Shown piece after piece: positions 35,965 to 63,855 of a stretch of 64,000 bases of DNA. Position 1 is the stretch's first letter. Each line of letters begins with the position of its first letter. The notes below the pieces were generated by a model. It did not search any database and was not told the DNA's origin. It saw only the letters and a program-made list of their open reading frames with translations. The translations under genes were made by a program, and so were the position numbers. This DNA comes from a bacterium. Its GTDB lineage: Bacteria > CAIWAD01. The stretch covers positions 62,001 to 126,000 of the forward strand of contig JAUIFJ010000005.1 of NCBI GenBank assembly GCA_030429345.1, written 5' to 3'.

Positions 35965-36033
35965 CTGACAGCCCAATGACAGCCTGACCGGTGGCCCGGT
36001 CGCCATGTCAGGTTTTGTCAGCTCACCTGTCAG
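35965..36033. promoter_or_regulatory. Symmetric array of TGACA half-sites upstream of hsp20
   Basis: Three TGAC(A/C) half-sites in forward sense (35966, 35977, 35985) are mirrored by three TGTCA in reverse sense (36006, 36016, 36028), with 8-12-base spacings, so that the 69-bp stretch is roughly palindromic about a GGTGGCCCGG centre. It is 75-145 bases upstream of the sigma54 promoter, the usual distance of an activator (enhancer) site. Confidence 0.55.
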
Positions 36034-36108
36034 TACGCTCGTCGTGCAAGATGGGCGAGGAAGCCTCATCCAACCCCATCTACTTGATTTTTATGCTCTT
36101 TCAAAAAT

Positions 36109-36123
36109 TGGCACTGCACTTGC
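36109..36123 (+). promoter_or_regulatory. Sigma54 (-24/-12) promoter of hsp20
   Basis: TGGCAC-TGCAC-TTGC: the GG at 36110-36111 and GC at 36122-36123 are exactly 10 bases apart, matching TGGCAC-N5-TTGC at every defined base. It is preceded by AT-rich DNA (TTTTTATGCTCTTTCAAAAA) and gives a leader of about 65 bases. Confidence 0.72.
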
Positions 36124-36200
36124 CAAGGAAGGAGCCAGAAGCCGACAGCAGATCGCTGTCAGGAAAGACCAACAAACAGACAGATAAAAGGAGACACATC

Positions 36201-36617
36201 ATGTATTACCGCAGCTACCTGCCGACCCTTGCCATCGACCGCGCCCTGCGCAATGACTGCAGCGACAAGACCTGCCACCCGGCCGCCTTCGGTCACCGGC
36301 TGCGCGCCGAACTGCGCGAACTCGGCGAAGGCTGGGAGATCCAGCTGGAGCTGCCCGGCCTGGGCAAGGAGGACCTGGAAATCAGCCTGGACAAGGACGA
36401 GCTGGTGATCGGCGGAACCTTTGTCCGCAAGGACCTGGGCGAACAGGACAAGGTGCTGCACAGCACCCGCTTCCAGGGCAAGTTCGAGCGCCGCTTCCGC
36501 CTGTCGGAGGAAGTGAGCCGCGAAGGCATCCAGGCCAGCATGCAGCACGGTGTCCTGACCGTAAGGCTGCAGAAGGTCGAAAAGGCCCTGCCGACCCGGA
36601 TCGAGATCCAGGGTTAG
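36201..36617 (+). CDS. Small heat-shock protein Hsp20
   Basis: Hsp20/alpha-crystallin chaperone, 138 residues, cytoplasmic holdase. After a short N-terminal arm, the alpha-crystallin domain runs from about residue 38 (WEIQLELPGLGKEDLEISLDKDELVIGG) to HGVLTVRLQKVE, with the conserved A/G-x-L-x-V type motif as HGVLTV. The usual C-terminal I-x-I/V motif is present as RIEIQG at the very end. The N-terminal arm has two Cys (CSDKTCHP). The ATG follows AAAGGAG. No CIRCE element was seen; instead a sigma54-like promoter lies upstream. Confidence 0.95.
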   Translation: MYYRSYLPTLAIDRALRNDCSDKTCHPAAFGHRLRAELRELGEGWEIQLELPGLGKEDLEISLDKDELVIGGTFVRKDLGEQDKVLHSTRFQGKFERRFRLSEEVSREGIQASMQHGVLTVRLQKVEKALPTRIEIQG

Positions 36618-36647
36618 CGGCCGCAGGAAATCGACTCCATCCAACCG

Positions 36648-36714
36648 GATACGGGCAAGGGGCCCGTATCACATCCCTGACATGAACCCCGCCGTCCCGT
36701 GCGGCGGCGGGGTT
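36648..36714. terminator. Two hairpins after hsp20
   Basis: GATACGGGC / GCCCGTATC (36648-36670, perfect 9-bp stem) and AACCCCGCCG / CGGCGGGGTT (36685-36714, perfect 10-bp stem, 10-base loop). Neither has a good T run, so they may end transcription weakly or protect the 3' end of the hsp20 mRNA. Confidence 0.5.
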
Positions 36715-36853
36715 GAGACACAAACCTGATTGAAATAGATCCCACATCCAAACCCACCTTTCTGCTGACGCGAGCGCCTCGGCCATTGGCCGGGGCGTCT
36801 TGTCTCACGGTCACATACAGCGATATAGGATGACTTTCCATCAAAGTTGTCCA

Positions 36854-37786
36854 CTAGCTCAAAACAAGTTTGAGTCCCGGATCAGTTTCTACACTATCGA
36901 TAATTTGGTTATAGGTATCAAGTAAACGGCGAATTTCAACACTCCGCTTGTCTGACTTGAAGGACATCCACTCATATATATTTGTGGCTATGAACTGACC
37001 GATTTCAACTACATCTACCCTATTGGCTAAGCCTTTCGCCTCTGCATGAACTCGAGCGGCCTCCATGCCTTTTGATCTTGTGATAATAATCGGTTGAAAC
37101 CCCTGATTCAAGTTTGTAAGACATCTATCCATCAATGCCTCTCCAGGTGTTGTTGTAACGTGGATTGCAGAGTCACGCACCAAGAAATCCCCCTTTCTGT
37201 CGGTCTGCTCATCAGAAACGGAGTAGCCATGGTGTTTGATGTTATAATCAGGAAGCGCTAGCACGAGTTTTGCCCCAACAAGATGCTGCAGTACAGCTCC
37301 AGCAACAGTTGAGCCAAGTTGTGTACTTTGCCGCTGATAGGCTGCCGTAAGAATATCATCCACAATGCATCGAAGAGACTTCGAGGAATCCGCGCTCACC
37401 TTCATAGGCTTAGCTAGCAGGAAAACTTTTACCCTTTCCACCCACCACTTTTCAACAAAGTTGCAATCAAGTAACCCATCCTTATCGAGCCCATTTACAA
37501 AGTCCACGTAACTTGTCATGCGTTCCATATTGCCGCGACTTGTTCTACCACCTTCTTGTGCCAACACTTTCTCAATACCATAGTCACTAAGAACTTTTTG
37601 AACTGCCGACTTTCCAAGGCCGCGAACCTGCCCTTGCTTTTGTGTCTGAAACTCTTCGTATGTAAATGGTGGCGTGCCTTCCTTCATTAGCCTGGTCAAA
37701 ACGATCATCAATGAAAGAGACCCTTTACTCTCTATCTTGTGCAGGTCTCGAAAAGACGCTAATCGCAGTTCTAGTTCGTCACTCAT
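36854..37786 (-). CDS. DUF4928-like protein, probable type II restriction endonuclease
   Basis: Protein of 310 residues encoded 8 bases after the cytosine methyltransferase. It resembles the DUF4928 group that accompanies C5 methyltransferases and is taken as the restriction partner. Segments: YVDFVNGLDKDGLLDCNFVEKWWVERVKVFL, then LQHLVGAKLVLALPDYNIKHHGYSV, DRKGDFLVRDSAIHVTTTPGEALMDRC (an acidic D...x-I-H-V pattern resembling a nuclease core), and QPIIITRSKGMEAARVHAEAKG. Target sequence unknown. GC is far lower than in the flanking genes, with many A/T-ending codons, showing recent acquisition. Confidence 0.75.
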   Translation of the reverse strand: MSDELELRLASFRDLHKIESKGSLSLMIVLTRLMKEGTPPFTYEEFQTQKQGQVRGLGKSAVQKVLSDYGIEKVLAQEGGRTSRGNMERMTSYVDFVNGLDKDGLLDCNFVEKWWVERVKVFLLAKPMKVSADSSKSLRCIVDDILTAAYQRQSTQLGSTVAGAVLQHLVGAKLVLALPDYNIKHHGYSVSDEQTDRKGDFLVRDSAIHVTTTPGEALMDRCLTNLNQGFQPIIITRSKGMEAARVHAEAKGLANRVDVVEIGQFIATNIYEWMSFKSDKRSVEIRRLLDTYNQIIDSVETDPGLKLVLS

Positions 37787-37794
37787 TTAGATCC

Positions 37795-38961
37795 TCAGGC
37801 AATGTTCTTGAATTTTGATGGAGCATTGCAAATGCCAACCAGCGGGTTCAGGTAGTTCGATGCGATCCAAGAAATGACAGGAACACAAACTGCGTCCCCA
37901 AATCCAAACAGAGCTTGATTAATGGGAACATCAATCTTGAAACCGGGGGCCCCCATGAGTGATGCACATTCTCTTGGTGTCATATGGCGAACAAATACTT
38001 TATCATATCCAACTTTTATCAGGATCTGCTTAGCGCTCCCGCCTTTAGATGTTCGAAGACAGCCAGCGATTCCATCCGTACGAATCTCTGCCATTGTCTT
38101 ACCGCCTCGAACTCTTCTAAACGCTGTGCAATATGACCATTTTCTTTTCTTCTTTTGCGCCTCAAGAGTTGAATAATGTTTGTCACTCATCTGAGATACA
38201 AAGTATTCTACACGGTCTCTAGACCACCACAGATCCGACTTGTGATCAATTTTCTCAATAAGATTACTCAACTTTTCCTTCAGAACTGGTAGCGCTGGCA
38301 GTGTTCGAATGCTCCAGTTAATATCTGGATGATCGAGGATGAAATTCGCCAAGGCTCTTGGCCTATGCTGAGATTCAAAGAACTGGCGCCCTGCAGAAAC
38401 CACCTTAGACCTATCCAAACTAGGTTTTGAACCAACTACAAAAAGCCGTCTTCGACTCTGAGGAACGAAATGTGCCGCGTCTATAATAAAAGCGTCAACT
38501 TCATACCCAAGCTTGTTCATGGCAGATAGAGCACTATAAAAATCAGTGCCAGAATTGGAAGAAATGAATCCAACTACATTCTCCAAGAGAATCACTTGTG
38601 GGCGACGAGCACCCATCTCTTCAACTACACGCATGAATCCCCAAAATGCCGAGGACTCTTTTCCGGAAAGGCCAGATCTTCCGCCAGCAAGCGAAAGATC
38701 TGTACAAGGAAACGATGCTGTTGCAAGAAGGGTAGACGGTACGGACATGCCCTTCACCACATGTACGTCAGTGGCATCAAAATGACTAGATTTGATTCCA
38801 AAGTGCCCTTCATACATGTCCTTTTTCTTTGTACTGATATCATTTGCATAGAGAATTCTCCACCCAGCTTGCTCCAGTCCTAGCCGCATAAGGCCAATTC
38901 CGGCAAAGAACTCTGCAACAGTCAAGTCATCTTGTGTCTGTTCACGCTTGTAGAGCATCAT
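37795..38961 (-). CDS. DNA (cytosine-5-)-methyltransferase
   Basis: C5 cytosine methyltransferase of 388 residues, the modification half of a type II system. The motifs are in canonical order: SAM-binding VAEFFAGIGLMRLGLEQAG (I), TASFPCTDLSLAG with the catalytic Cys (IV), VILLENVVGF (VI), VPQSRRRLFVVG (VIII), target-recognition region with WSYCTAFRRVRGG, and the late TPRECASLMG and GFGDAVCVPVISWIA (IX, X). The ATG at 38961 (MMLYKREQ) is chosen; upstream extension to 39039 reads as non-coding. AT-rich like its partner. A type II pair of this kind acts as a selfish addiction module and phage defence. Confidence 0.93.
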   Translation of the reverse strand: MMLYKREQTQDDLTVAEFFAGIGLMRLGLEQAGWRILYANDISTKKKDMYEGHFGIKSSHFDATDVHVVKGMSVPSTLLATASFPCTDLSLAGGRSGLSGKESSAFWGFMRVVEEMGARRPQVILLENVVGFISSNSGTDFYSALSAMNKLGYEVDAFIIDAAHFVPQSRRRLFVVGSKPSLDRSKVVSAGRQFFESQHRPRALANFILDHPDINWSIRTLPALPVLKEKLSNLIEKIDHKSDLWWSRDRVEYFVSQMSDKHYSTLEAQKKKRKWSYCTAFRRVRGGKTMAEIRTDGIAGCLRTSKGGSAKQILIKVGYDKVFVRHMTPRECASLMGAPGFKIDVPINQALFGFGDAVCVPVISWIASNYLNPLVGICNAPSKFKNIA

Positions 38962-39054
38962 CGTTCCAGTTCGGTTTGTTCTTAATGAATCTAGTTGTGG
39001 GCTGGGACATCTCGCAGTCTGAATATTGAAGCCGGCCAAACACTGAATGAAAAA

Positions 39055-39999
39055 CTAGAGCGGATTCTCCCGGCGGTAGTCCTCGTAGAGGCTGCGTACC
39101 AGGCCGTCGGCCAGGCCCGTGCGGGGGACCATCATCCGCTCCGCCCGGCCGTGCTTCATGCAGTAGGTGTAGATGCGCAGGGCGTGAGGCATGACGTCCG
39201 CGCGATCGGGGCGCAGGCCGAGATCACGGATGCGCCGGGGAATATCCAGGGCCTCGATCTCCTCCGCCCTGGCGCGGATTTCTGTCAGCTCCAGCAGCTC
39301 GCCCTTGCTGGCACTGCTGATCGAGTAGAGCTTGTTGATGTTGCCCCCGCTGCCCATGGCCAGTACGCCGGATTCCGGCCGGTTCCGCTTGAGCCACTTC
39401 TTGAGGTCCTCCCAAAGCAGCGGGCTGTCCTGGCCATGCAGGAGGCGCACGGTTCCCAGCGGGAAGGAACGGCTGCAGGAAGGCTGTTCGCCGCCGAAGA
39501 AGGTCACCTCCGTGCTGCCCCCGCCCACGTCGATGAACAGGCAGCGCTGCTCCCGCGCCGCCAGACCGCTGCGCTCGTTCTCGAGGATCAGCCCGGCCTC
39601 CTCTTCCCCGGTGATACACTGGAGATCCAGGTCGCATTGCAGGTTGAGACGCCGCATGAGCGAGTCGCTGTCCACGAGGCTGCGCAGGGCGGATGTAGCA
39701 CAGGCGCGCCACCGCAGCGGCTGCCAGGCCTTGATCAGCGAGGAGAAGCCCTGCAGCGTGTGCAGCAGGCGGGATTCGGTTTCCGCGCCCAACCGGCCCT
39801 GCAGGAAGGCCTCGGTGCCAAGACGCAGGGGCATGCGCAGCAGGCTGACCTTGCGGAAGACCGGATCGCCGTCGCGGTCGAAGACGGAAGTGAACAGCAG
39901 GCGCAGCGCGTTGGAGCCCACGTCTACCGCAGCGAAACGCAGGCCTTCATCCGGCCGGAGTTCGGGAAGTGTCGGTGTTTCAGTCGCTGGCCGGCTCAT
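39055..39999 (-). CDS. ppx: Ppx/GppA family exopolyphosphatase
   Basis: Protein of 314 residues of the actin-like-fold Ppx/GppA phosphatases, which hydrolyse polyphosphate or pppGpp. It shows LRFAAVDVGSNALRLLF (phosphate loop 1), CATSALRS, ITGEEEAGLILENE, CLFIDVGGGSTEVTFF (phosphate loop 2), FPLGTVRLL and AMGSGGNINKLY. It lacks the C-terminal HD-like domain of E. coli Ppx, so it is a short form. It overlaps the ppk stop by 20 bases, a usual arrangement for opposite polyphosphate activities. Confidence 0.94.
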   Translation of the reverse strand: MSRPATETPTLPELRPDEGLRFAAVDVGSNALRLLFTSVFDRDGDPVFRKVSLLRMPLRLGTEAFLQGRLGAETESRLLHTLQGFSSLIKAWQPLRWRACATSALRSLVDSDSLMRRLNLQCDLDLQCITGEEEAGLILENERSGLAAREQRCLFIDVGGGSTEVTFFGGEQPSCSRSFPLGTVRLLHGQDSPLLWEDLKKWLKRNRPESGVLAMGSGGNINKLYSISSASKGELLELTEIRARAEEIEALDIPRRIRDLGLRPDRADVMPHALRIYTYCMKHGRAERMMVPRTGLADGLVRSLYEDYRRENPL

Positions 40000-42052
40000 G
40001 GAGCTCCCGGTTCAGGCGCGTGAGTGCCTTCTGGACCCGTTCGCCCTTCCCGCGATCGCGGTAGCGGTTCTGCTGGTTGCCGTCCAGCAGCCGGGCTTTG
40101 CGGTCATCCTGCCAGTAGAGATCGAGCATCCGGTCCAGGTAGGCGCGCAGGGAAGGATCGTATACGGGAACCATGACCTCGACACGGCGCTCGAAGTTGC
40201 GCGGCAGGATGTCGGCGCTTCCCAGGTAATATCGGGGATCGCCTCCATTATGGAAACGCCAGATCCGCGAGTGCTCCAGGTAGCGGTCGATGATCGCCAT
40301 CGACTCCATGTTCTCTGTTCCGGGCACCTCGCCCGGACGAGCGGTGAACATGCCGCGGACATTGAGCCGCACCTTCACGCCCGCCGCGGCAGCACGGTAG
40401 AGCAGGCGCACGATCTCTGCATCGCCCAGGTTGTTCATTTTCAAATGGATGTCGGCCTCCCGCCCCTGGCCGGCCTCGCTGGTCTCCTTGTCGATCAGCA
40501 GCTTGAGCGTATCACGGCTGTTCCAGGGCGACACGACCAGGTGGCGCAGGCGGAGCTGGGTGAAGGGACGGCTGAAGAAGCGGAAGAGCTGCGCCACCTC
40601 GCGGCAGATGCCTTCGTGGCAGGTCAGGAGGATGAGGTCCTCGAAGGTGCGCGAGGTGTCCTCGTTGAAGTTGCCCGTCCCGATGCAGGCATAGCGCTTG
40701 CGACCCGTCTTCTCCTCGCGCTCGATCAGCACCAGCTTGCTGTGGACCTTCAATCCCGCCACGCCGAAGATCACCTCGACGCCCTCCTCGGCCAGTTCTT
40801 CGGCCCAGTGCAGATTGGCCCGCTCGTCGAAGCGCGCCTGCAGCTCGACCACCGCCGTCACCTGCTTCCCGTTGCGGCGCGCGGTGATCAGCGCGCGGAT
40901 CACATCGCTGTTGCGCGCCAGGCGGTAGAGGGTCGTCTTGATCTTGCGCACACGTGGATCCAGGGCCGCTTCGCGCAGGATGGAGACGAACTGCTGGAAG
41001 GGATTGTAGGGCGTGTGCAGCAGAAGGTCCTGCTTGCGCATCACGGTCAACTTGCTGCGCCGGTGGGGCAGGCGGGAATGATCGACCTGTTCCAGGGGAG
41101 GATAGCGCAGGCTCGCCGAACCGACCTCCGGGAAGTCGATCAGGTCCCTCCGGTTGTGGTAGCGGCCGCCGGGAAGGAGGGTGTCATTCCGTGATACACC
41201 AAGCCGCTTCATCAGCGCGGACAGGAAGCGCGGCTCGATGGTCTCGTCGTAGACGAAGCGAACAGGCAGCCCCTTCTCGCGCTTCTTCAGGCCGCCCATC
41301 AGCTTCTCGCTGTAGCTCAGGGAAACGTCGTCGTCCAGGTCGAGCTCCGCGTCGCGGGTCAGCTTGATCGTCCAGGCCTGGAAGGTGTCGTGGCGGAAGA
41401 GCGAGAAGATGCTGGGCAGCATCAGGCGGATCACGTCGTCGATCATGATAATCGTTGTCTCACGCCCTCTCTTCGGCAGGACGATGAAACGGTCCAGATG
41501 CCGCGGCAGCTCGATCAGGGCATAGCGCTTCTTGCGCCGCACCCGGCTGTCGCTGAGCACCACGGCCAGGTAGATGCTGCGATCCTGCAGGGAAGGCATC
41601 TCGTGTTTCAGGTCCAGCAGGATCGGACTCAGCTCCGCCTGCAGCACGCGGTAGAAGAAGCTTTCGATCCAGGCGACCTGCTCCTCGTCGAGACCCTGCT
41701 CGTTGACCAGGAAGATCCTGTTGCTGGCCAGCTCGGCGATCACCTCGTTGTAGGTGTTGTTGTACTTCTTGTGCAGATCGATCACACAGCGCTGCACCTG
41801 TTCGAGCACCACCGCTGGATCATGGCCAATGAGCGTCCGGGCCCGATCGCCGATCTGGCAGAGCCGGCGCAGGGTGGCCACGCGGACACGAAAGAACTCG
41901 TCCAGGTTGGAGGAGTAGATTCCCAGGAAGCGCACGCGCTCGATCAAGGGTACGCTTGGATCACGCGCCTCCTGGAGCACTCGGGCATTGAAGGAAAGCC
42001 AGCTCAGCTCCTTCGGGACAAGATCCCCTTCCAGCTCGGGCATCCGGAACAC
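39980..42052 (-). CDS. ppk: Polyphosphate kinase
   Basis: Ppk1, 690 residues; reversible transfer of ATP gamma-phosphate to polyphosphate, membrane associated. N-terminal PKELSWLSFNARVLQEARD and the SSNLDEFFRVRVATLRR motif; SILREAALDPRVRKIKTTLYRLARNSDVIRALI; VTAVVELQARFDERANLHWAEEL with autophosphorylation His region further on (GLKVHSKLVLIER), YACIGTGNFNEDTSRTFEDL, and the C-terminal HNGGDPRYYLGSADILPRNFERRVEVMVP. A GTG at 42052 lies 5 bases after AAGGAGG; the next ATG (42043) lies too far from it. A terminator for the upstream gene lies inside the longer open frame, excluding the earlier start at 42292. Confidence 0.96.
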   Translation of the reverse strand: MFRMPELEGDLVPKELSWLSFNARVLQEARDPSVPLIERVRFLGIYSSNLDEFFRVRVATLRRLCQIGDRARTLIGHDPAVVLEQVQRCVIDLHKKYNNTYNEVIAELASNRIFLVNEQGLDEEQVAWIESFFYRVLQAELSPILLDLKHEMPSLQDRSIYLAVVLSDSRVRRKKRYALIELPRHLDRFIVLPKRGRETTIIMIDDVIRLMLPSIFSLFRHDTFQAWTIKLTRDAELDLDDDVSLSYSEKLMGGLKKREKGLPVRFVYDETIEPRFLSALMKRLGVSRNDTLLPGGRYHNRRDLIDFPEVGSASLRYPPLEQVDHSRLPHRRSKLTVMRKQDLLLHTPYNPFQQFVSILREAALDPRVRKIKTTLYRLARNSDVIRALITARRNGKQVTAVVELQARFDERANLHWAEELAEEGVEVIFGVAGLKVHSKLVLIEREEKTGRKRYACIGTGNFNEDTSRTFEDLILLTCHEGICREVAQLFRFFSRPFTQLRLRHLVVSPWNSRDTLKLLIDKETSEAGQGREADIHLKMNNLGDAEIVRLLYRAAAAGVKVRLNVRGMFTARPGEVPGTENMESMAIIDRYLEHSRIWRFHNGGDPRYYLGSADILPRNFERRVEVMVPVYDPSLRAYLDRMLDLYWQDDRKARLLDGNQQNRYRDRGKGERVQKALTRLNRELHEPASD

Positions 42053-55162: not shown

Positions 55163-55243
55163 TCAAGGTAGGATTCAGCGCCTTAAATTCCCCGGGAAGG
55201 AATGTCGGAGACGCGGATCCGCGAAGGCCCGGAAAGGACAATC

Positions 55244-56581
55244 GTGACGGGACGGCTTTTCATTCTCTTGCTGCTGACGGCGGCATCGGCCCTGGCCAGC
55301 ACGCGCCTGCAGGAAGAGCAGGCCCGGCTGGACTCGCTGGCCGGGGCGCTGGATCGCTTCCGCCAGGAGAGTCGCGCCCTGCAGGGACAGCAGCAGACGG
55401 GGCTCGAACGCCTGGATCGCCTGCAGCAGCAGCTCAGCCGTTCCAGCCAGCTGGTGCTGCGGCTGCAGGAGCAGGTGACGGCCCTGGACCTCTCGCTGGA
55501 AGAGGGGGAAGCCTTCCTGAACCGCAATCAGCGGACCCTGGATTCGCTGGGCCTGGAAAGCCGTTCGCGGGAAGCGCACCAGCTCGACCTGCGAGAGCAG
55601 TACCGCGAAATGGTGCTGCGGCTCTTCAAAGGGCGTCGGGAGGACCCGCTTTTCTGGCTGCTGGCCTCCGGCAGTCCCGGAGAAGCCTGGGAACGGGCGC
55701 GCTGGTTTCCCTGGTTCAGCCGCGGGCTGCAGCGACTGCAGCATACGCTGGAAGGGGAACAGCAGCACCTGGCGCGCCTCAGCCGCGAACGGCAGCGCGT
55801 GCAGCTGGAACAGGGCCGAAAACAGCGGCAGCAGGAAGAGGAGCGAAGCCTGGCGGAGCAGAACCGCCAACGCACCAGCGAAAGCCTTCAGGAACTGCGC
55901 CAGGACCGGCGCCTGGTGGACGAAAAACTGCGCCAGGTGCAAGAGGACCAGCGCCTGCTCGACCAGGCCAGGGTGCAGGCCGAAGCCGCGCAAAGCGGCA
56001 TTCGCGAAGCGGTCGAGAAGCTGCAGGAGCGCTGGAAGAGCCGGCAGCAGCGCCTGGAATCCGAAGCCAGCGAACGGGAAAGCCTGCAGAAGCTTCTGGG
56101 ACAGGAGGAACCCCGTCCTTCTCGGCAGCCGCTGCGTGAAAGCGCGCCCACGACCTACGAGGAAGGAAGACTGAGCGATCTGCGCGGCCGGAAAGGCAGC
56201 CTGGATCGGCCGGTGCAGGGACGCCTCGCCCGGCGCTACGGCATGCACCGGGACGCGGCGACCGGCACCCAGACCGACAACCCGGGCTGCGACTACCGTT
56301 GCGAACCGGGGGCCGAGGTACGCCTGGTGCACCCGGGGCAGGTTGTCCGAGTCACCTGGCTGCCGGGCTTCGGCAACACGGTGCTGGTGGACCACGGACA
56401 CGGCGCGATCAGCGTCTACTCCAAGCTGGAAAGCGTGATCGAGCTTCCCGAACAGGTGCTGCCGGCCGGGACCGTGATCGGTCGGGCGGGCAGTTTCGAC
56501 GAAGCGGGCGCCGGCAGCGTCCACTTCGAACTCTGGCTCGAGCGCGAGAGCCAGGACCCGGAGAAGTGGCTCAGGCGCTAG
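55244..56581 (+). CDS. EnvC-like murein hydrolase activator with degenerate LytM domain
   Basis: Protein of 445 residues: signal peptide (after the GTG, TGRLFILLLLTAASALA), long coiled coils (about 20-120 and 160-300, rich in Gln/Arg/Leu/Glu), then a C-terminal LytM fold (RYGMHRDAATGTQTDNPGC..., TVLVDHGHGAISVYSKLESV). The zinc ligands are lost: the HxxxD site reads NPGCD and the HxH motif reads SVHFE, so it should activate amidases as EnvC does rather than cut. The GTG at 55244 follows GGAAAGGA and begins the signal peptide; an ATG at 55202 has a site too close. The last 68 bases of the gene recur at 63722, flanking the insert downstream. Confidence 0.88.
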   Translation: MTGRLFILLLLTAASALASTRLQEEQARLDSLAGALDRFRQESRALQGQQQTGLERLDRLQQQLSRSSQLVLRLQEQVTALDLSLEEGEAFLNRNQRTLDSLGLESRSREAHQLDLREQYREMVLRLFKGRREDPLFWLLASGSPGEAWERARWFPWFSRGLQRLQHTLEGEQQHLARLSRERQRVQLEQGRKQRQQEEERSLAEQNRQRTSESLQELRQDRRLVDEKLRQVQEDQRLLDQARVQAEAAQSGIREAVEKLQERWKSRQQRLESEASERESLQKLLGQEEPRPSRQPLRESAPTTYEEGRLSDLRGRKGSLDRPVQGRLARRYGMHRDAATGTQTDNPGCDYRCEPGAEVRLVHPGQVVRVTWLPGFGNTVLVDHGHGAISVYSKLESVIELPEQVLPAGTVIGRAGSFDEAGAGSVHFELWLERESQDPEKWLRR

Positions 56582-56593
56582 GGGCGTGTCCGG
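56513..56593. repeat. Left copy of the 81-bp direct repeat flanking the island
   Basis: Covers the last 23 codons of the EnvC-like gene plus 12 bases after its stop. It matches 63722-63802 in the same orientation at 77 of 81 positions (differences within CACTT/CACTC, AGTGG/AGGGG, CAGG/CAAG and GTGTC/GCGTC). The two copies bracket 7128 bases of lower-GC DNA. Confidence 0.93.
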
Positions 56594-56688
56594 CAGCGCT
56601 GACGGTTTTTTTGGGATTGAAGCCGTGCACCGTGAGTAGGAGCGTGTAGCTCACCATTTCGTCCATCTTGTCTGTTTACATGGACATG

Positions 56689-56731
56689 GCGAAACAAAAG
56701 AACCCGCCCAAGGAAAGTTGGGCAGGTTCTT
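56689..56731 (-). terminator. Terminator of the LamG gene
   Basis: Read on the minus strand: GAACCTGCCCAA, 6-base loop, TTGGGCGGGTTC (11 of 12 paired), then TTTTGTTTCG. It lies about 80 bases after the LamG stop and near the left edge of the insert. Confidence 0.85.
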
Positions 56732-56810
56732 TACTGTGTCTTGCCTGGCGAGGAGGAAGCACCTCCCCGCCAGGATCTGCGGGGCGAATCACTCGTCCCG
56801 CGGGGGGGGA

Positions 56811-59594
56811 CTAGTTGCCGCAGCCGATCACACGGTATTGGCGCATGCCACTGTCGACAGGACGCACGATGGAGTGTGTTGTCATCGTGGCTTCTGTTTG
56901 CCATTCCTCGCTTGCATCCTTCCGTCCCTGAACCAAGTACGCCGAATGAGCCGGATGATCCTCCCACTCCAGCAACAGCTGTCCATTGGCAAATCGGATG
57001 TCCAAGTGGATCGGATCATACATGCGTTTCAGCGCCAGGATCTCCTCCTGCGAGAGGGCGCGATCATGAATTGTGATCTCATCTATCCTGCCCTCGAAGG
57101 GCACAGAGATACTGGAACAGGCGCCCAGTCCGCCACAGCCGATGGTAAACCCAGTCTCGGACGAGATTGGCGTTCCCTCGGCGGGCGACAGCGCGTCAAG
57201 TACCCCATCGACATACAGGGCGACATAGTCGTTCTTCTTGTACACCGCAGAGACAAACACCCACTCGTCCTCTATGAGAACCTGGTTGCCTGTGATCACC
57301 GGGGGATTCGACACAATTGTATCCGTATCCATTACGAAGCGGAGAGCCCCGTTGGTATCGATGAAGAACCCCATGTTCCTGACGACGGAATCGCCCTTGC
57401 CGAGAAAGGCCATTTTCTGGGCCGGAGTCACCAGGTAGGGACGGATGTAGGCGCTAAAAGTGCAACTTCCGGTCATGTTGAAGGCATCATTCTGGCTGGC
57501 ATCCGACAGGAACAGAACATCTCCACCGCCGAACTCGTAAGCGCCATCAGGAGTACCGGCATAGCCCGTCGCCAACTGCGCCCCATCCGTATCACAGTGG
57601 AATGCGTTCCCGCTGAGGTCGGAGGCGTTCCCATGAACGGGGTAGTATGCCAGTGGTCCGGCCGGATCATAGAGTTCACGGGCCTGGCACTGCGTGAACG
57701 CTCGATCATACAGGCGGACATCGTCGATGAATCCTTCGAAGGGCACGGACTGGGAGTAGCATGCCCCATCGCCGCCGCAGCCGATCGCCAGCCCAACTGG
57801 GCTCAGCACGGGATCGCCGGCGGCCACATTGCTGTTGTCCAGTTCTCCGTTGAGATAAAGTGCAACAATCTGGTCCTTCCGATATACGGCCGTAACCTGA
57901 ACCCACTCACCCGGCAACAGCTGTGATGCGCTTTCCAGAACAGGGGGGTAGTCACTGGCTTCCTGTGTATCGATCACGAGTCTCACCCGGCTGTCCGGTG
58001 TTATAAAGAGTCCGTAGTTGCGCAAGGCCGAATCACCCTTTCCGAGAATAGCCATTTTCATTCCCGGTGTGACCATGTCAGGACGGATCCAAACCGAGAG
58101 GGTCATGCTTCCCTCGAAATCAAGCAGGTGATCCTGGGTTACGCTACCATCGAGGCGGCAGTAGTCGGTTCCGCCAACCACGTATGCAGCTTGTTCATCC
58201 CCGAAACGTCCCGTCGCAAAAGTGCCCCCTTCCAGCACGCAGTGCAGTTCATTGCCGGAGACATCCAGCGAGTTACCCGAAAAAGGATAGTGGGCGACCA
58301 AACCGCCAGGTTCGACGATCTGCATTATGTCCTGCTCCGACAACGGGGCATTGTAAAGGCGGATCTCGTCGATCTCCCCTTCGAAAGGCACGGAGAGGTT
58401 CAAACACTGGCCGACGCCCTGGCAACCGATAGCAGACAAGGTTGCAGTGGGTTCGGGAAGGCCGCTAGCTACCATCAGGGTATCCAGCACACCATCGATG
58501 TAAAGCGCCATGTGGGAATCCACGTCGTAGACAAACCCCACATGCACCCACTCGCCGGCAGCCAGAGCACTGCGGCTGTTCAGCGTGCCCACATTGTCGA
58601 TGACAAAACGCAGTCGACCGTCGGGTTGGACATATGCACCATAATTCCTGTGTGCGGGATTCCCTTTGCCCAGAATCGACATCTTCTGCGGCGGTGTGAC
58701 GTTCAACGGCCGGATCCAGGACAGCAGGCTCATGCTGTGAGACATGGACAACAGCGTGTCGGCATCCGAATCCGCCAGCCGCAAATGGGCTCCGCCGCTG
58801 AAACTGTAGGCGCCTTGCGGCTCGCCGTATGGCCCTGTCACGAGAGTGGCCCCGTCGGTGATGCAATGCAGGCCCAAGGGACCCGCATCGTCGGCATTGC
58901 CGGCTACGGGATAATACGCCAGAAGCCCGCCGGGCTGATGGATTTCGTGCACCTGTGCTGCGGTCAGGGCTCGGTTGAAGAGTCGCACTTCGTCCAGGGC
59001 TCCGACATAGGGCTCAGAAAGATTGAAGCAGCTGCCGCTTCCCTGGCATCCCAGGGCAAACTGCTGCGAACTGGCCACAGGAAAACCGGTGGCAGTGGTC
59101 AGAGTATCCAGTTCGCCATTGATGTAGATCGCCATAGAATGATTGATTCTGTATACGAGACACACATCCACCCAGACATCAACCTCAAGAACGGCAGAAC
59201 TGAACAACATCTCGCTCACACCGTCCACACTCCACTGAAGGCGTCCGTTCGGGGCAATAAAGAGAGCGTAGTTTCGCAGCGCACTGTCCCCCTTGCCAAG
59301 AACACCCATCTTGCCGGCAGGGTGGGTCACCTCGGGACGAATCCGCGCAGAGAGTGACATGCTGTCGTACAGGTTGAAGACGTCGCTTTCAGGCATCACG
59401 ATAGGAGCACCGCCCGAGAAGCGGGCAGCGGAATGGGGATTCCCATCTGCGTCCTCGACCCAGGTGACATCCCCACCACTTCCATCAAGTGCATTGGGTC
59501 CCTCATCGTTCGCATTCCCGTTCAAGGGGTAATACGCGAACTGGGCCTGAACGACCAAGGCATAGCACAACAGAATCAGAATAGTCGTCTTCAT
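56811..59594 (-). CDS. Exported protein with four LamG-like domains
   Basis: Protein of 927 residues. Signal peptide MKTTILILLCYALVVQAQ, then four tandem concanavalin-A/LamG-like domains of about 205 residues each. Every unit starts with (A)YYP-type strands (FAYYPLNGNANDEGPNALDG, LAYYPVAGNADDAGP, VAHYPFSGNSLDVSG, LAYYPVHGNASDLSG), contains a KMxxLGKGDSALRNYxxFI core and ends in a DEVRLFNRAL-type helix. The last 70 residues form a fibronectin-like module (QLLLEWEDHPAHSAYLVQG ... RQYRVIGCGN). LamG domains bind glycans or proteins at the surface. Start: GAGGGAGG precedes the ATG. Lower GC than the chromosome. Target of the neighbouring sigma54 system by inference. Confidence 0.92.
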   Translation of the reverse strand: MKTTILILLCYALVVQAQFAYYPLNGNANDEGPNALDGSGGDVTWVEDADGNPHSAARFSGGAPIVMPESDVFNLYDSMSLSARIRPEVTHPAGKMGVLGKGDSALRNYALFIAPNGRLQWSVDGVSEMLFSSAVLEVDVWVDVCLVYRINHSMAIYINGELDTLTTATGFPVASSQQFALGCQGSGSCFNLSEPYVGALDEVRLFNRALTAAQVHEIHQPGGLLAYYPVAGNADDAGPLGLHCITDGATLVTGPYGEPQGAYSFSGGAHLRLADSDADTLLSMSHSMSLLSWIRPLNVTPPQKMSILGKGNPAHRNYGAYVQPDGRLRFVIDNVGTLNSRSALAAGEWVHVGFVYDVDSHMALYIDGVLDTLMVASGLPEPTATLSAIGCQGVGQCLNLSVPFEGEIDEIRLYNAPLSEQDIMQIVEPGGLVAHYPFSGNSLDVSGNELHCVLEGGTFATGRFGDEQAAYVVGGTDYCRLDGSVTQDHLLDFEGSMTLSVWIRPDMVTPGMKMAILGKGDSALRNYGLFITPDSRVRLVIDTQEASDYPPVLESASQLLPGEWVQVTAVYRKDQIVALYLNGELDNSNVAAGDPVLSPVGLAIGCGGDGACYSQSVPFEGFIDDVRLYDRAFTQCQARELYDPAGPLAYYPVHGNASDLSGNAFHCDTDGAQLATGYAGTPDGAYEFGGGDVLFLSDASQNDAFNMTGSCTFSAYIRPYLVTPAQKMAFLGKGDSVVRNMGFFIDTNGALRFVMDTDTIVSNPPVITGNQVLIEDEWVFVSAVYKKNDYVALYVDGVLDALSPAEGTPISSETGFTIGCGGLGACSSISVPFEGRIDEITIHDRALSQEEILALKRMYDPIHLDIRFANGQLLLEWEDHPAHSAYLVQGRKDASEEWQTEATMTTHSIVRPVDSGMRQYRVIGCGN

Positions 59595-59636
59595 TGCTCC
59601 TCCCTCGATTGAAATCGTGTTTGCAATCGAAGGATT

Positions 59637-59653
59637 GGCAATAGGCGGGCCAA
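59637..59653 (-). promoter_or_regulatory. Sigma54 (-24/-12) promoter of the LamG gene
   Basis: On the minus strand TTGGCCC-GCCTA-TTGCC: GG (59651-59650) and GC (59639-59638) are exactly 10 bases apart; only one base of TGGCAC-N5-TTGC differs (C for A). It lies about 45 bases before the LamG ATG and after the stop of the sigma54 activator gene. The palindrome GGCCAATTGGCC (59648-59659) overlaps the -24 element, and a 7-bp inverted repeat TCGATTG/CAATCGA (59605-59630) lies in the leader. Confidence 0.68.
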
Positions 59654-59737
59654 TTGGCCAGTAGCTTTGAAGACGCGATGGACGCCCGGGTGAAATCACG
59701 TGAACGTATCCACAGCACACGAAGATGTGGGAAAAGG

Positions 59738-61165
59738 CTACGAGTGAGGGGAGGACTGCCGTCTGTTTCGGAGTTCTGGCAGAACATCATAGAATTTCTT
59801 CCGGTGTACACCGGCGAGTTCTGCTGCTGTGGCAATGATTCCATTTGCCTCTTCCAGCTTGGCTCGGAAGTAGCGCAACTCGATTTCGGCCTTGACTTCC
59901 TTCCAGGTCTTGTCCAGCGCAAAACCACTTTCGTCGGCGATGTCCGTTTCTTGACCCAGAAGACGCAGGTCCCAGTGCACCCGCTCTCTTTCGACCAGCC
60001 AGGACTGGATCTGTGACTGCTCCGCGTGAACACACAACGCCTGAACGAACTGCATCAATTGGCGCACATTGCCTTCCCAATCGATCCTCGCGAGGGCCTC
60101 AAGGGCATCAGGCTGGATCATGACTGGTTGAGTATGCCTGGCTCGATTTCGAGCTTCCAGAACATGCCCGACAAGCAAAGGAATGTCCTCCAGCCTTTCC
60201 TGCAAAGGCGGTATACGGATGCGCAGCCCGCTAAGCCTGTGAAGCAGATCATCGCGAAAGGCACCCATTCGCACTTGCTGGAGCAGGTTTCGGTTGGATG
60301 CAGCTACCAACTGAACATCTGTGCGACGGATTTTCCCTTCTCCCAGCCGGGAGAAGGTTCCCGTTTCGAGAACCCTCAGGAACTTGCCTTGCACCTCCAG
60401 AGGCAGTTCGGAGATCTCGTCGACGAACAGAACACCATTATTGGCATTTTCGAAAGCACCTGGCCTAGCCTTCCCGGCACCGGTGTATGCGCCGTCTACA
60501 TGCCCAAAAAGTTTGGTTTCCGCCAAGGACACCTGGATGTTGGTGCAATCCAAGACGGTCAATTCTTTGTGTGCTCGTGGACTCTGCCGGTGGATCGCTT
60601 CTGCGACGAGCTCCTTGCCAGTTCCCGTTTCTCCCTCGACTAGAATCGACAAGTCTTCCTCGCTTGCGTAGGTGCGGATCCGGGCACGCAACTCTTGCAT
60701 GACCTGGCTTTGACCTAGTAATGGATCTTCCGCAGGTTCTTCTTCCCGGCGCCATGCGCACAGACTTTCCGCTTCCTTCAGGGCGGGTCGAAGATCGGCA
60801 GCTGCGGACTCCTTAACCACGTATTGAACCATGCCCAGGTTCGCAAAGCGATGGACCAGGCTCGTATTGCCACTCATGGTAATCACGATTACGGGAATCG
60901 CATGCCGATTCTGCCGCAGGTCCTGCAGTAAATGCAGCCCGCCGTTGACATCTCCGGGAAACTCATTATCCAGAAGCAGGACATCCGGCTTCCAGGAGTG
61001 GATCAACTCCTCGACAGATTCCAGATCCGGCGTCCACTCCGCTTCGTATCCCCAGCGCTGCAGGTTCTTTCGGTAGAGCACTCCATACTCCTGCTGATCC
61101 TCTACAATCAGGACACGGTATTTCCGGTTGCCGGCTTGGCGTTCAGGCATGTGACACTCCATCAA
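59738..61165 (-). CDS. Sigma54-dependent response regulator (NtrC/AtoC type)
   Basis: Protein of 475 residues. Receiver domain with phospho-acceptor Asp66 (VLLLDNEFPGD) and Lys118; AAA+ domain with Walker A GETGTGKE (178-185), the sigma54-contact loop GAYTGA (225-230, Tyr in place of the usual Phe), Walker B GVLFVDEI (244-251), sensor/arginine-finger FRDDLLHRL; C-terminal Fis-like helix-turn-helix (AAELAGVHRKKFYDVLPELR). Everything needed to activate sigma54 RNA polymerase is present. It overlaps the histidine kinase stop by 23 bases and is followed by a sigma54 promoter for the LamG gene, its probable target. Confidence 0.95.
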   Translation of the reverse strand: MMECHMPERQAGNRKYRVLIVEDQQEYGVLYRKNLQRWGYEAEWTPDLESVEELIHSWKPDVLLLDNEFPGDVNGGLHLLQDLRQNRHAIPVIVITMSGNTSLVHRFANLGMVQYVVKESAAADLRPALKEAESLCAWRREEEPAEDPLLGQSQVMQELRARIRTYASEEDLSILVEGETGTGKELVAEAIHRQSPRAHKELTVLDCTNIQVSLAETKLFGHVDGAYTGAGKARPGAFENANNGVLFVDEISELPLEVQGKFLRVLETGTFSRLGEGKIRRTDVQLVAASNRNLLQQVRMGAFRDDLLHRLSGLRIRIPPLQERLEDIPLLVGHVLEARNRARHTQPVMIQPDALEALARIDWEGNVRQLMQFVQALCVHAEQSQIQSWLVERERVHWDLRLLGQETDIADESGFALDKTWKEVKAEIELRYFRAKLEEANGIIATAAELAGVHRKKFYDVLPELRNRRQSSPHS

Positions 61166-63572
61166 GTAACTGTTCCTGCCGTACTAGCGGGAGCCGCAAG
61201 TAGACAGCTGCTCCACCGATCTCCTTGTTCCTGACAGTCAATTCCCCCCCGTGCTCATGGGCAATATGCCGCGAAAGAAACAGGCCGAATCCGGAACCTT
61301 CGTCCTTTGTCGTGAATCCCGGTTCCCAGATCCTGTCCAGGACATCCGGCGGAATGCCGGGACCATTGTCCTCGATGCGCAGAACAGCCATTTCTTCCTC
61401 CTGCTGCAACAGAAAGTGGAGCGTCCCTTTCCGGCGCATCGCTTCCACGGCATTCCTCAGCATGCTCTCGATCATCGCCTGGACTGAAGCTGTGGCTACG
61501 TATACGGGAAGCAACTCCGCCTGACGGGAAGAGGTGACATCGATTGTCGACATGGCATCCAATCCCAGATCCGTGCAGGCATTCTCGAGCAGCGTGCCCA
61601 GATCTACCGATTCCCGCTCCTCCCCTACTTTGATGAGGGCCAGAAAACGCTTGATCCGTTCCCGGCAGAACCGGTGGGCCACTTGCATTTCTTCAACTGC
61701 CTCACGGAAGCCAGAATCCTTCTCAAGGCCTGCCTCTTGGATCGACTCCTGCAGATTCACGACCGCGAATTCGGCAGGCAGCAGGGCCTTGCCCAGATTG
61801 TGGGTCAAGATCCCTGCAAAGCTTTCTAGCCTCCCCAAATGTTCCCTTGTCATTCGGTTCGTGTCATCAATTCCCTGAATGTACCACCCTATCCTGGAGG
61901 CTTGAATGTGTGTTTCCCGGGCAATCCAGCGAAACAGCCGTCCGTCCTGCCAGCTATCGATGAATCCCGATTCCCTGGCTCGGGCATGCCCGATCACGCG
62001 ATCCAGCAGATCCCCTGGGACCAGTTCGCGAAATCGCGTATTTGCATAGAGCAACTCTCCCTGGTCATCTGTGAGTGCTGCTGCTGTCACTCCGTCAGAC
62101 AGCATTCCGCTCAACACCCGCTCCTGGCGGCGTACTCTGTAGGACAGATACACCAGCAAGAGGACAAAGGACACAGCGAATGCTGGGGGGATCGCGGGAT
62201 TCGCCATCAAGCGTGATACGAATGGAACATGACTGATCGTGAAGGACTGCAACAACTGACCATCCGAAACATGAATGCGGCTGTTCTCAAGCGTACCGTC
62301 TACGGATTCCAGCAGGATCCGATTCTTATTCCCTGCAGTACTGATCTCGACCAGTGGTTGCCCCTCCGGGGAATAGAGCCTGTATCCGGTCGCGGGGCGG
62401 AATGCGAGCCAGTACGCCTCTTGGACAAGCCCGATCAGGATGCTGTCACGGAATCCACGCAGGTGCCCCGCCGGCACAAGTCTTCCTGAATCGAAAAAAA
62501 ACTTGAATAATCGTCCGTCCTGGTTGACAAGGAGTGCGTGGTTCTGGCGGATCAGACAGAAGTTCTCCAGACCAGCCAAACGAGCCGAAGTAAGCACGCT
62601 GTCCTTCCAAGCATCCAGGACGACCAGGTTATGCGTCTCGGGAACGTCAACCCTGTCAAAGACCTGCTTGGTCTGCAGGTAGATCCGACGGCGGTCCTGC
62701 AGAACGTGGGCATTCAATGCCGTGTGCGCCATCCCCATGCGAATCTGCTCGACAAAACCGGAATCGGGATCCATCAGAAACAAAGGTGCTTCCCCGTCGT
62801 TGACACCACCCAGTTCCCTGCCGTTGCGGGTGGCATGCCCACCCATTGCGTACAAGGAATGGCCATCGGGGGTCAGCAGCGTCTGATTTGAGTAGGGGGC
62901 TGGCGCAATGGCATTGGGAAACAAGTCAACGATCTGCAGCGATAGGGGATCGATGAGAACACCACCACGCCAGCCTTCAAAATGGCCGAACAGGGACAGG
63001 TAAAGCAACTCTCGCCCCTTGTGCTCCAGGCGATTCGCCTCAATGACCCATGGCGCTTCCCTTATTGAAACAGGCACCTGATCCGAGTGAAACAGCGGCA
63101 GGTCCGCTTCCTCAATCCCGCTGCCGAAGGGCCAGCGTCGAAGACACAAGTATACGGCGCTGGAGTCGCGTGTTAGCAGACACAGTGTCGGGGCCCCTGC
63201 AAGCGTATCGAAGAAATGGGGACGAAGAACAATCTCATCCCCTGGAAAGTAGAGCTGCTTGGCCGGACGTCGCTGGAGCGGAGTATTGTACTCGATCGTC
63301 ATCGAAGCGCCATGGAGCTTCGAGCGGGATTCGCGCATTCGCTCGGCGAAACCATCTTGATCGATATCCCCGACCGCAACAAACCCCGCCGTCATGCTGG
63401 AGTCGAACCGTTGGATTCGGTGTGATACACCAGGTTGAAACCAGAATTCCATCGCGCACCCGATGAGCAAGGACAGGAGCACACAAAATGCGACACCGAT
63501 CAATAGAGTCTTCTTGTAATGAACAAGGAAGCTGCGACGATAGGGTAGACCCTTGTTGGCGACACCGAACAT
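61143..63572 (-). CDS. Sensor histidine kinase with large periplasmic propeller-like domain
   Basis: Protein of 809 residues. First membrane helix at about 22-44; periplasmic part 45-460 with an FG-GAP-like GDIDQDGFAE motif (68-77) and repeated strands (LLTPDGHSLYAMGG, FLMDPDSGFVEQI, NLVVLDAWKDSVL, ALLVNQDGRLFKF) suggesting a beta propeller; second helix at about 461-479; a PAS-like segment (AALTDDQGELLYANTRFRELV); a dimerisation helix with the phospho-acceptor His591 in an unusual box (GILTHNLGKALLPAEF); HATPase with N box RNAVEAM, DNGPGIP and GSGFGLFLS. It probably senses an extracytoplasmic ligand, perhaps the product or glycan bound by the LamG protein, and phosphorylates the activator next to it. 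Confidence 0.93.
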   Translation of the reverse strand: MFGVANKGLPYRRSFLVHYKKTLLIGVAFCVLLSLLIGCAMEFWFQPGVSHRIQRFDSSMTAGFVAVGDIDQDGFAERMRESRSKLHGASMTIEYNTPLQRRPAKQLYFPGDEIVLRPHFFDTLAGAPTLCLLTRDSSAVYLCLRRWPFGSGIEEADLPLFHSDQVPVSIREAPWVIEANRLEHKGRELLYLSLFGHFEGWRGGVLIDPLSLQIVDLFPNAIAPAPYSNQTLLTPDGHSLYAMGGHATRNGRELGGVNDGEAPLFLMDPDSGFVEQIRMGMAHTALNAHVLQDRRRIYLQTKQVFDRVDVPETHNLVVLDAWKDSVLTSARLAGLENFCLIRQNHALLVNQDGRLFKFFFDSGRLVPAGHLRGFRDSILIGLVQEAYWLAFRPATGYRLYSPEGQPLVEISTAGNKNRILLESVDGTLENSRIHVSDGQLLQSFTISHVPFVSRLMANPAIPPAFAVSFVLLLVYLSYRVRRQERVLSGMLSDGVTAAALTDDQGELLYANTRFRELVPGDLLDRVIGHARARESGFIDSWQDGRLFRWIARETHIQASRIGWYIQGIDDTNRMTREHLGRLESFAGILTHNLGKALLPAEFAVVNLQESIQEAGLEKDSGFREAVEEMQVAHRFCRERIKRFLALIKVGEERESVDLGTLLENACTDLGLDAMSTIDVTSSRQAELLPVYVATASVQAMIESMLRNAVEAMRRKGTLHFLLQQEEEMAVLRIEDNGPGIPPDVLDRIWEPGFTTKDEGSGFGLFLSRHIAHEHGGELTVRNKEIGGAAVYLRLPLVRQEQLLDGVSHA

Positions 63573-63682
63573 GAACCGAGACCCCTACTGCTGCGGATGT
63601 TGTACCTGGTTCGCACAAGATTGTACCCTTTTCCCACACATCATTCCATTCAAGGTGGGCTTGGGCGGGCACAAGGAATCAA

Positions 63683-63699
63683 CAGCAATCTACATGCCT
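63683..63699 (-). promoter_or_regulatory. Possible sigma54 promoter of the kinase-activator operon
   Basis: On the minus strand AGGCAT-GTAGA-TTGCT: GG (63698-63697) and GC (63686-63685) 10 bases apart, GGCA and TTGC(T) conserved, first and sixth bases differing from consensus. It lies about 110 bases before the kinase start and just inside the right edge of the insert. If real, the operon would be autoregulated. A TACAAT sigma70-like box also occurs downstream (near 63625), without a good -35. Confidence 0.4.
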
Positions 63700-63721
63700 G
63701 CTGAAACAGCCGCTCCGTGTA

Positions 63722-63790
63722 GGCAGCGTCCACTCCGAACTCTGGCTCGAGCGCGAGAGCCAGGACCCGGAGAAGGGGCTCAAGCGCTAG
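63722..63790 (+). pseudogene. 3' fragment of the EnvC-like gene
   Basis: The repeat still reads in frame as GSVHSELWLERESQDPEKGL plus KR and a TAG stop, matching the EnvC-like C-terminus with three substitutions. There is no start or upstream part, so it is a dead remnant produced when the insert arose. Confidence 0.8.
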
Positions 63791-63802
63791 GGGCGCGTCC
63801 GG
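63722..63802. repeat. Right copy of the 81-bp direct repeat flanking the island
   Basis: Second copy of the sequence at 56513-56593 (77/81), including the last codons and stop of the EnvC-like gene. It is the outer edge of the insert, in front of the terminator and C-terminus of the next chromosomal gene. Confidence 0.93.
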
Positions 63803-63817
63803 TACAGAGAGCGGAAA

Positions 63818-63855
63818 GGTCCCGCCCCGGCATTGAGGGGCGGGCCCTTCTCTTG
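63818..63855. terminator. Bidirectional terminator at the right end
   Basis: GGTCCCGCCCC, 8-base loop, GGGGCGGGCCC (one mismatch), followed by TTCTCTT on the plus strand and TTTCC on the minus strand. It separates the EnvC fragment from the convergent partial gene. Confidence 0.75.

Follow-up and report, generated by a model that had tools for sequence, protein, structure and literature searches.

Insertion of the prophage e14 within the 3' end of the E. coli icd gene leaves a 163-bp displaced copy, icd' (PMC6379469), and this is the closest precedent for the locus described here, in which a protein-coding gene has likewise received an insertion within its 3' end, bordered by a working end and a displaced copy of that end. 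However, e14 is a prophage of about 15 kb that integrates site-specifically, whereas the island behind the envC-like gene (hereafter envC) is a 7.1-kb, three-gene cargo with neither phage genes nor a recombinase, for which a site-specific step of the e14 type is putative. The envC island shares with the e14 type the repeat of the target-gene end and the intact target gene, but not the element-encoded integrase. Integrase-borne islands in the 3' ends of genes such as guaA are also comparable, as they combine a gene-end target with flanking direct repeats, but the envC island has no integrase, mobility genes or second occupied site. The cargo itself resembles NtrC/NtrB-type systems, with a HATPase kinase, a receiver-AAA+-HTH regulator and a -24/-12 element upstream of a neighboring gene; it differs from them in the large beta-rich sensor of the kinase, in an H-box that reads HNLGK instead of HELK(T/S), and in the LamG protein as presumed target.

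The features of the locus, located in a 64-kb stretch of DNA analyzed as a whole (the window), are collected in Table 1. The original prediction had described an 81-bp direct repeat of the envC gene end enclosing three minus-strand genes of lower GC, and both the repeat and the enclosed genes were recovered as described. The two repeat copies are identical at 77/81 positions (95%; BLAST E 3e-32), with a spacing of 7209, and comprise the final 69 bp of envC, including the stop codon, plus 12 bp. They differ by four mismatches, and the longest exact shared stretch is a 40-bp block. All three coding differences alter the protein: in the right copy, HFE has become HSE and a W has become G, and the residues affected, F442 and W456, do not vary among the four aligned EnvC proteins (orthologues in the three family relatives G001-G003 are 32-34% identical). 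The envC frame is complete at the left junction, with the conserved HFE and P..WL. On this alignment, the gene end that works and is under selection is the left copy; the right copy, having lost residues invariant in all four proteins, is a displaced remnant in decay. The divergence of approximately 5% between copies suggests that the insertion event is not recent. No third degenerate envC end was detected near holB (the score was below the shuffled maximum), a scan of the genome contigs with EnvC returned only a remote M23 match, and the core sequence of the repeat has no further occurrence in the genome.

Table 1. Features of the envC locus (positions in the window).
Feature	Position	Strand	Basis
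envC-like gene encoding an M23 peptidase of 459 aa; insertion site at its 3' end	55202..56581	+	Pfam M23 5.9e-15
Left repeat copy, functional gene end	56513..56593	+	Repeat search, EnvC alignment
Inverted repeat CTGGCTC-N8-GAGCCAG, possible recombinase core	56533..56554, also 63742-63763	+	Within 40-bp identical block
Copy of 37-copy dispersed extragenic repeat, REP-like, RAYT-linked	56606..56650	+	Genome repeat search
Hairpin flanked on each side by T-runs; likely bidirectional terminator separating envC from LamG gene	56700..56729	.	Direct reading of sequence
LamG gene; signal-peptide-like N-terminus, four LamG/ConA domains	56811..59594	-	Pfam Laminin_G_3 2.1e-84, 4 stretches
Sigma-54 -24/-12-like element TGGCCCGCCTATTGC, 44 bp upstream of LamG ATG	59638..59652	-	Strict motif scan
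NtrC-type response regulator; receiver, AAA+ sigma-54 domain, C-terminal helix-turn-helix-like segment	59738..61165	-	PF00072, PF00158
Membrane histidine kinase; HATPase, probable TM-flanked beta-rich sensor; overlaps regulator gene	61143..63572	-	Pfam, alignment, model
Right repeat copy, displaced and decayed envC 3' end	63722..63802	+	Repeat search, EnvC alignment
GC-rich hairpin followed by TTCTCTT, after right copy; likely terminator	63818..63847	.	Direct reading of sequence

The genes between the repeat copies encode a protein with four LamG domains, a sigma-54 response regulator and a histidine kinase, and they are set apart from their surroundings by composition (GC 0.555-0.574 and GC3 0.62-0.66, versus GC 0.66-0.68 for FtsK, GcvT and EnvC, with GC3 of 0.87 for FtsK and 0.82 for EnvC). 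The four genes to the right of the island have a host-like GC3 of 0.82-0.89, and the homologues in G001 have a GC content of 69-71%, matching that of their own host. Neither an integrase nor any other recombinase or remnant was found within the island, in agreement with the absence of integrase and transposase noted originally, and no Rfam matches were obtained within the window. A further low-GC stretch (0.53) is present at window positions 36000-40000.

Alignment of related genomes across the locus showed that G001-G003, which belong to the same family, have the order comB-gcvT / envC-holB, with only 53-110 bp from the envC stop to the holB start, and lack the island, the second repeat copy and the 8.4-kb block found to its right. 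No empty single-copy site was found in this comparison, which covered relatives at the family level. In the genome under study, envC and holB are 15.6 kb apart, a gap made up of the 7.1-kb module, the second envC end and the 8.4-kb block, which contains genes for a VWA protein, a PAS-GAF protein, a DUF6090-like protein and a beta-helix protein. The first of these, encoding a 692-aa protein with a FlgD-Ig/T9SS-like tail, lies on the minus strand and is therefore convergent with envC outside the island, as had been proposed for this type-IX-like neighbor. What had not been foreseen is that this neighbor, as judged from gene order, is part of a block specific to this lineage, since envC directly adjoins holB in the relatives. 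Given that the same flanks are here 15.6 kb apart and that a block of host-like composition lies beside the module, at least two additions have probably taken place behind envC, with the repeat as the boundary between them.

The structure is that of an insertion of a signaling module with a duplicated and decayed gene end, an event of an ordinary kind; what was added is a three-gene module behind a cell-wall hydrolase gene. Five observations form the basis for an insertion: the duplicated end, the sharp edges, the foreign composition, the absence from the three family relatives and the decay of the right copy. The original interpretation is therefore supported in its first part, namely that an insertion at the 3' end of envC left the gene end duplicated. 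Its second part, a small passive element or one mobilized in trans, is not supported: the core is unique, the island has no recombinase, the integrase contexts sampled lack duplicated gene ends, no cargo relatives were found in viral contigs and the divergence between the copies has reached 5%. Indeed, mobilization in trans is unsupported because no integrase, second use of the site, empty site or sign of present mobility of the island was found.

The reading that we tentatively favor, at a little under even confidence, is that recombination within the final ~81 bp of envC brought in the module in a single piece, with a lost integrase as the most likely agent. The incoming DNA would have carried an envC end of its own, now completing the gene at the left junction, and the original end would have been pushed to the right junction, where it would have decayed, as with e14 in icd; the integrase responsible would since have been lost. 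The 7-8-7 inverted repeat within the identical block favors this explanation, with its chance level of 1-3% (1.25% of 40-bp windows contain such a repeat by chance) counting against it. Also counted against an integrase were its absence from the island, the uniqueness of the core in the genome and the fact that no convincing duplicated gene ends were found around the integrase contexts sampled (all twelve tyrosine-recombinase matches in the genome lie outside the island), as well as the location of both copies on a single contig of 183 kb within a draft assembly. The direct-repeat searches covered selected stretches of the genome.

Nearly as likely as a lost integrase, and still a doubtful proposition in itself, is the capture, mediated by RecA, of a segment linked to envC in a congener. 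Here, congener DNA with the module already behind envC would have recombined homologously within envC, with an illegitimate junction formed 81 bp short of the resident gene's end, so that the repeat would consist of the donor and recipient gene ends. Such a capture explains why the similarity stops 12 bp past the stop codon, why the copies are 5% divergent and why no recombinase is present; the lineage-specific repeat located between envC and the LamG gene points to a donor from within that lineage. Both homology-facilitated illegitimate recombination and single crossover of circularized fragments have been documented (PMC3240628). However, this explanation requires a donor that has not been seen, and the mechanism is rare, with a frequency of 3e-10 per recipient cell in an E. 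coli conjugation system (PMC3240628). An internal rearrangement, in which deletion would have reduced a once longer duplicate of the envC region to a scar of its last 81 bp and the module would derive from a separate event, appears improbable: it involves a single locus and needs no recombinase, but both edges are sharp, no further envC remnant lies nearby and the composition of the module differs from that on both sides.

An active or in-trans mobilized element using the envC end as attachment site is more improbable still. The att-like geometry with its inverted repeat and the twelve tyrosine recombinases potentially encoded elsewhere in the genome would be in keeping with it, but the core is unique, the right copy is decayed, no cargo relatives were found in viral contigs, and plasmid matches to the cargo were restricted to the kinase domain, none being full-length. 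Scarcely any credence is given to the related proposal of an integrase-free cassette at the envC 3' end, moved in trans and spreading surface-sensing circuits within the uncultured phylum. If the site were an active attachment site, it would offer a natural locus for integration in an uncultured group. Least probable of all is an assembly artifact: the genome is a draft of 92 contigs, but misassembly at the repeat is unlikely because the two copies share no exact match longer than 40 bp and carry four mismatches, and because the locus is enclosed within a 183-kb contig.

Returning to the module, which we take to have been inserted as a unit, its gene content points to a coherent circuit formed by a histidine kinase, an NtrC-type sigma-54 activator and a LamG protein that is probably secreted. 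The kinase would sense a signal in the envelope and phosphorylate the regulator, which in turn would activate sigma-54-dependent transcription of the LamG gene. For this gene, the ATG at 59594 is preferred as start over the listed upstream GTG, and no LamG paralogue is present in the genome. The upstream element, TGGCCCGCCTATTGC, is the only strict -24/-12 match in the 64 kb, where 0.36 would be expected by chance. Other window sites score slightly above it in a weighted sigma-54 scan; therefore, it is the placement of the site that outweighs its score. The regulator carries GAYTGA, a variant of the GAFTGA motif, and the kinase ends in a HATPase domain (PF02518, 1.5e-19). The phospho-acceptor H591 is invariant in three homologues, and the H-box of the two homologues in G001 is HELK(T/S). 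Two membrane helices are predicted, with low confidence, around the beta-rich region; the AlphaFold model of the sensor was too poor for use (mean pLDDT 50.7). The receiver and AAA+ domains, the adjacent kinase, the predicted -24/-12 site and the presence of rpoN in the genome place the pair among sigma-54 two-component systems.

Among the 386 genomes searched, full-length members of the kinase family were found only in this genome and in G001, with a partial one in G003, and the large beta-rich sensor region was restricted to this taxonomic family, where it occurs in four places. In G001, the homologous pair follows a gene for a C25 peptidase, and a near-perfect -24/-12 element (TGGCACCGCCTTTGCT) is located 174 bp before the ATG of that gene. 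The kinase-regulator family has so far been seen in a single taxonomic family, where the surface or secreted proteins paired with it differ. The locus documents the addition of what would be a complete sense-and-respond circuit, with a probably secreted protein, behind a cell-wall gene in an uncultured phylum, without breaking that gene. In G003, the family is represented at L216:3433-5447 by a shortened kinase and a regulator with an internal deletion, both apparently in decay.

A dispersed repeat lies 12 bp to the island side of the left repeat copy. It contains the near-invariant sequence TGTGAGTAGGAGCGTG, is present in 37 copies in this genome, mostly behind genes (according to approximate gene calls), and was absent from the 40 other genomes searched. 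Two copies in direct orientation (C75:130066 and C75:130921, corresponding to L171:9567 and L171:10422) flank a RAYT gene at C75:130401 (NF047646, 80.1 bits, cut-off 80), and for this reason the repeat is best read, from its arrangement in the genome, as REP-like. REP pairs are usually inverted, whereas several pairs of this repeat, 177-237 bp apart, are in direct orientation. Its predicted fold consists of a 5-bp outer stem and a 13-nt loop, with a stability not above that of shuffled sequence. GTAG REPs are extragenic, are often found between convergent genes and flank RAYT genes (PMC3733652); the repeat resembles them in being dispersed, extragenic and GTAG-containing with a RAYT-flanking pair, but differs in its weak palindrome, its direct-orientation pairs and its low number of copies. 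The repeat was also considered as an island end or attachment site and rejected: the 36 other copies border no duplicated gene ends, no consistent drop in GC occurs on either side, and copies flank a RAYT gene instead.

A PF01797 search of this genome of an uncultured phylum yielded ten Y1 transposase (IS200/RAYT-like) matches. On the contig that carries the envC island, a second low-GC stretch of ~7.5 kb (G000:C13:141500-149000; L176:9500-17000) also begins at a copy of the dispersed repeat and contains genes for two beta-helix proteins with T9SS-type tails, with no gene-end duplication. The 3' ends of T9SS-cargo genes, together with the dispersed repeat, share 88% DNA identity between contigs C48 and C13 (L163:17010-17833 and L176:9485-10308), and shorter parts of these gene ends also occur at two C75 loci (L172 and L173). 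These common T9SS-cargo gene ends possibly reflect gene conversion or the spread of sorting-tail ends.
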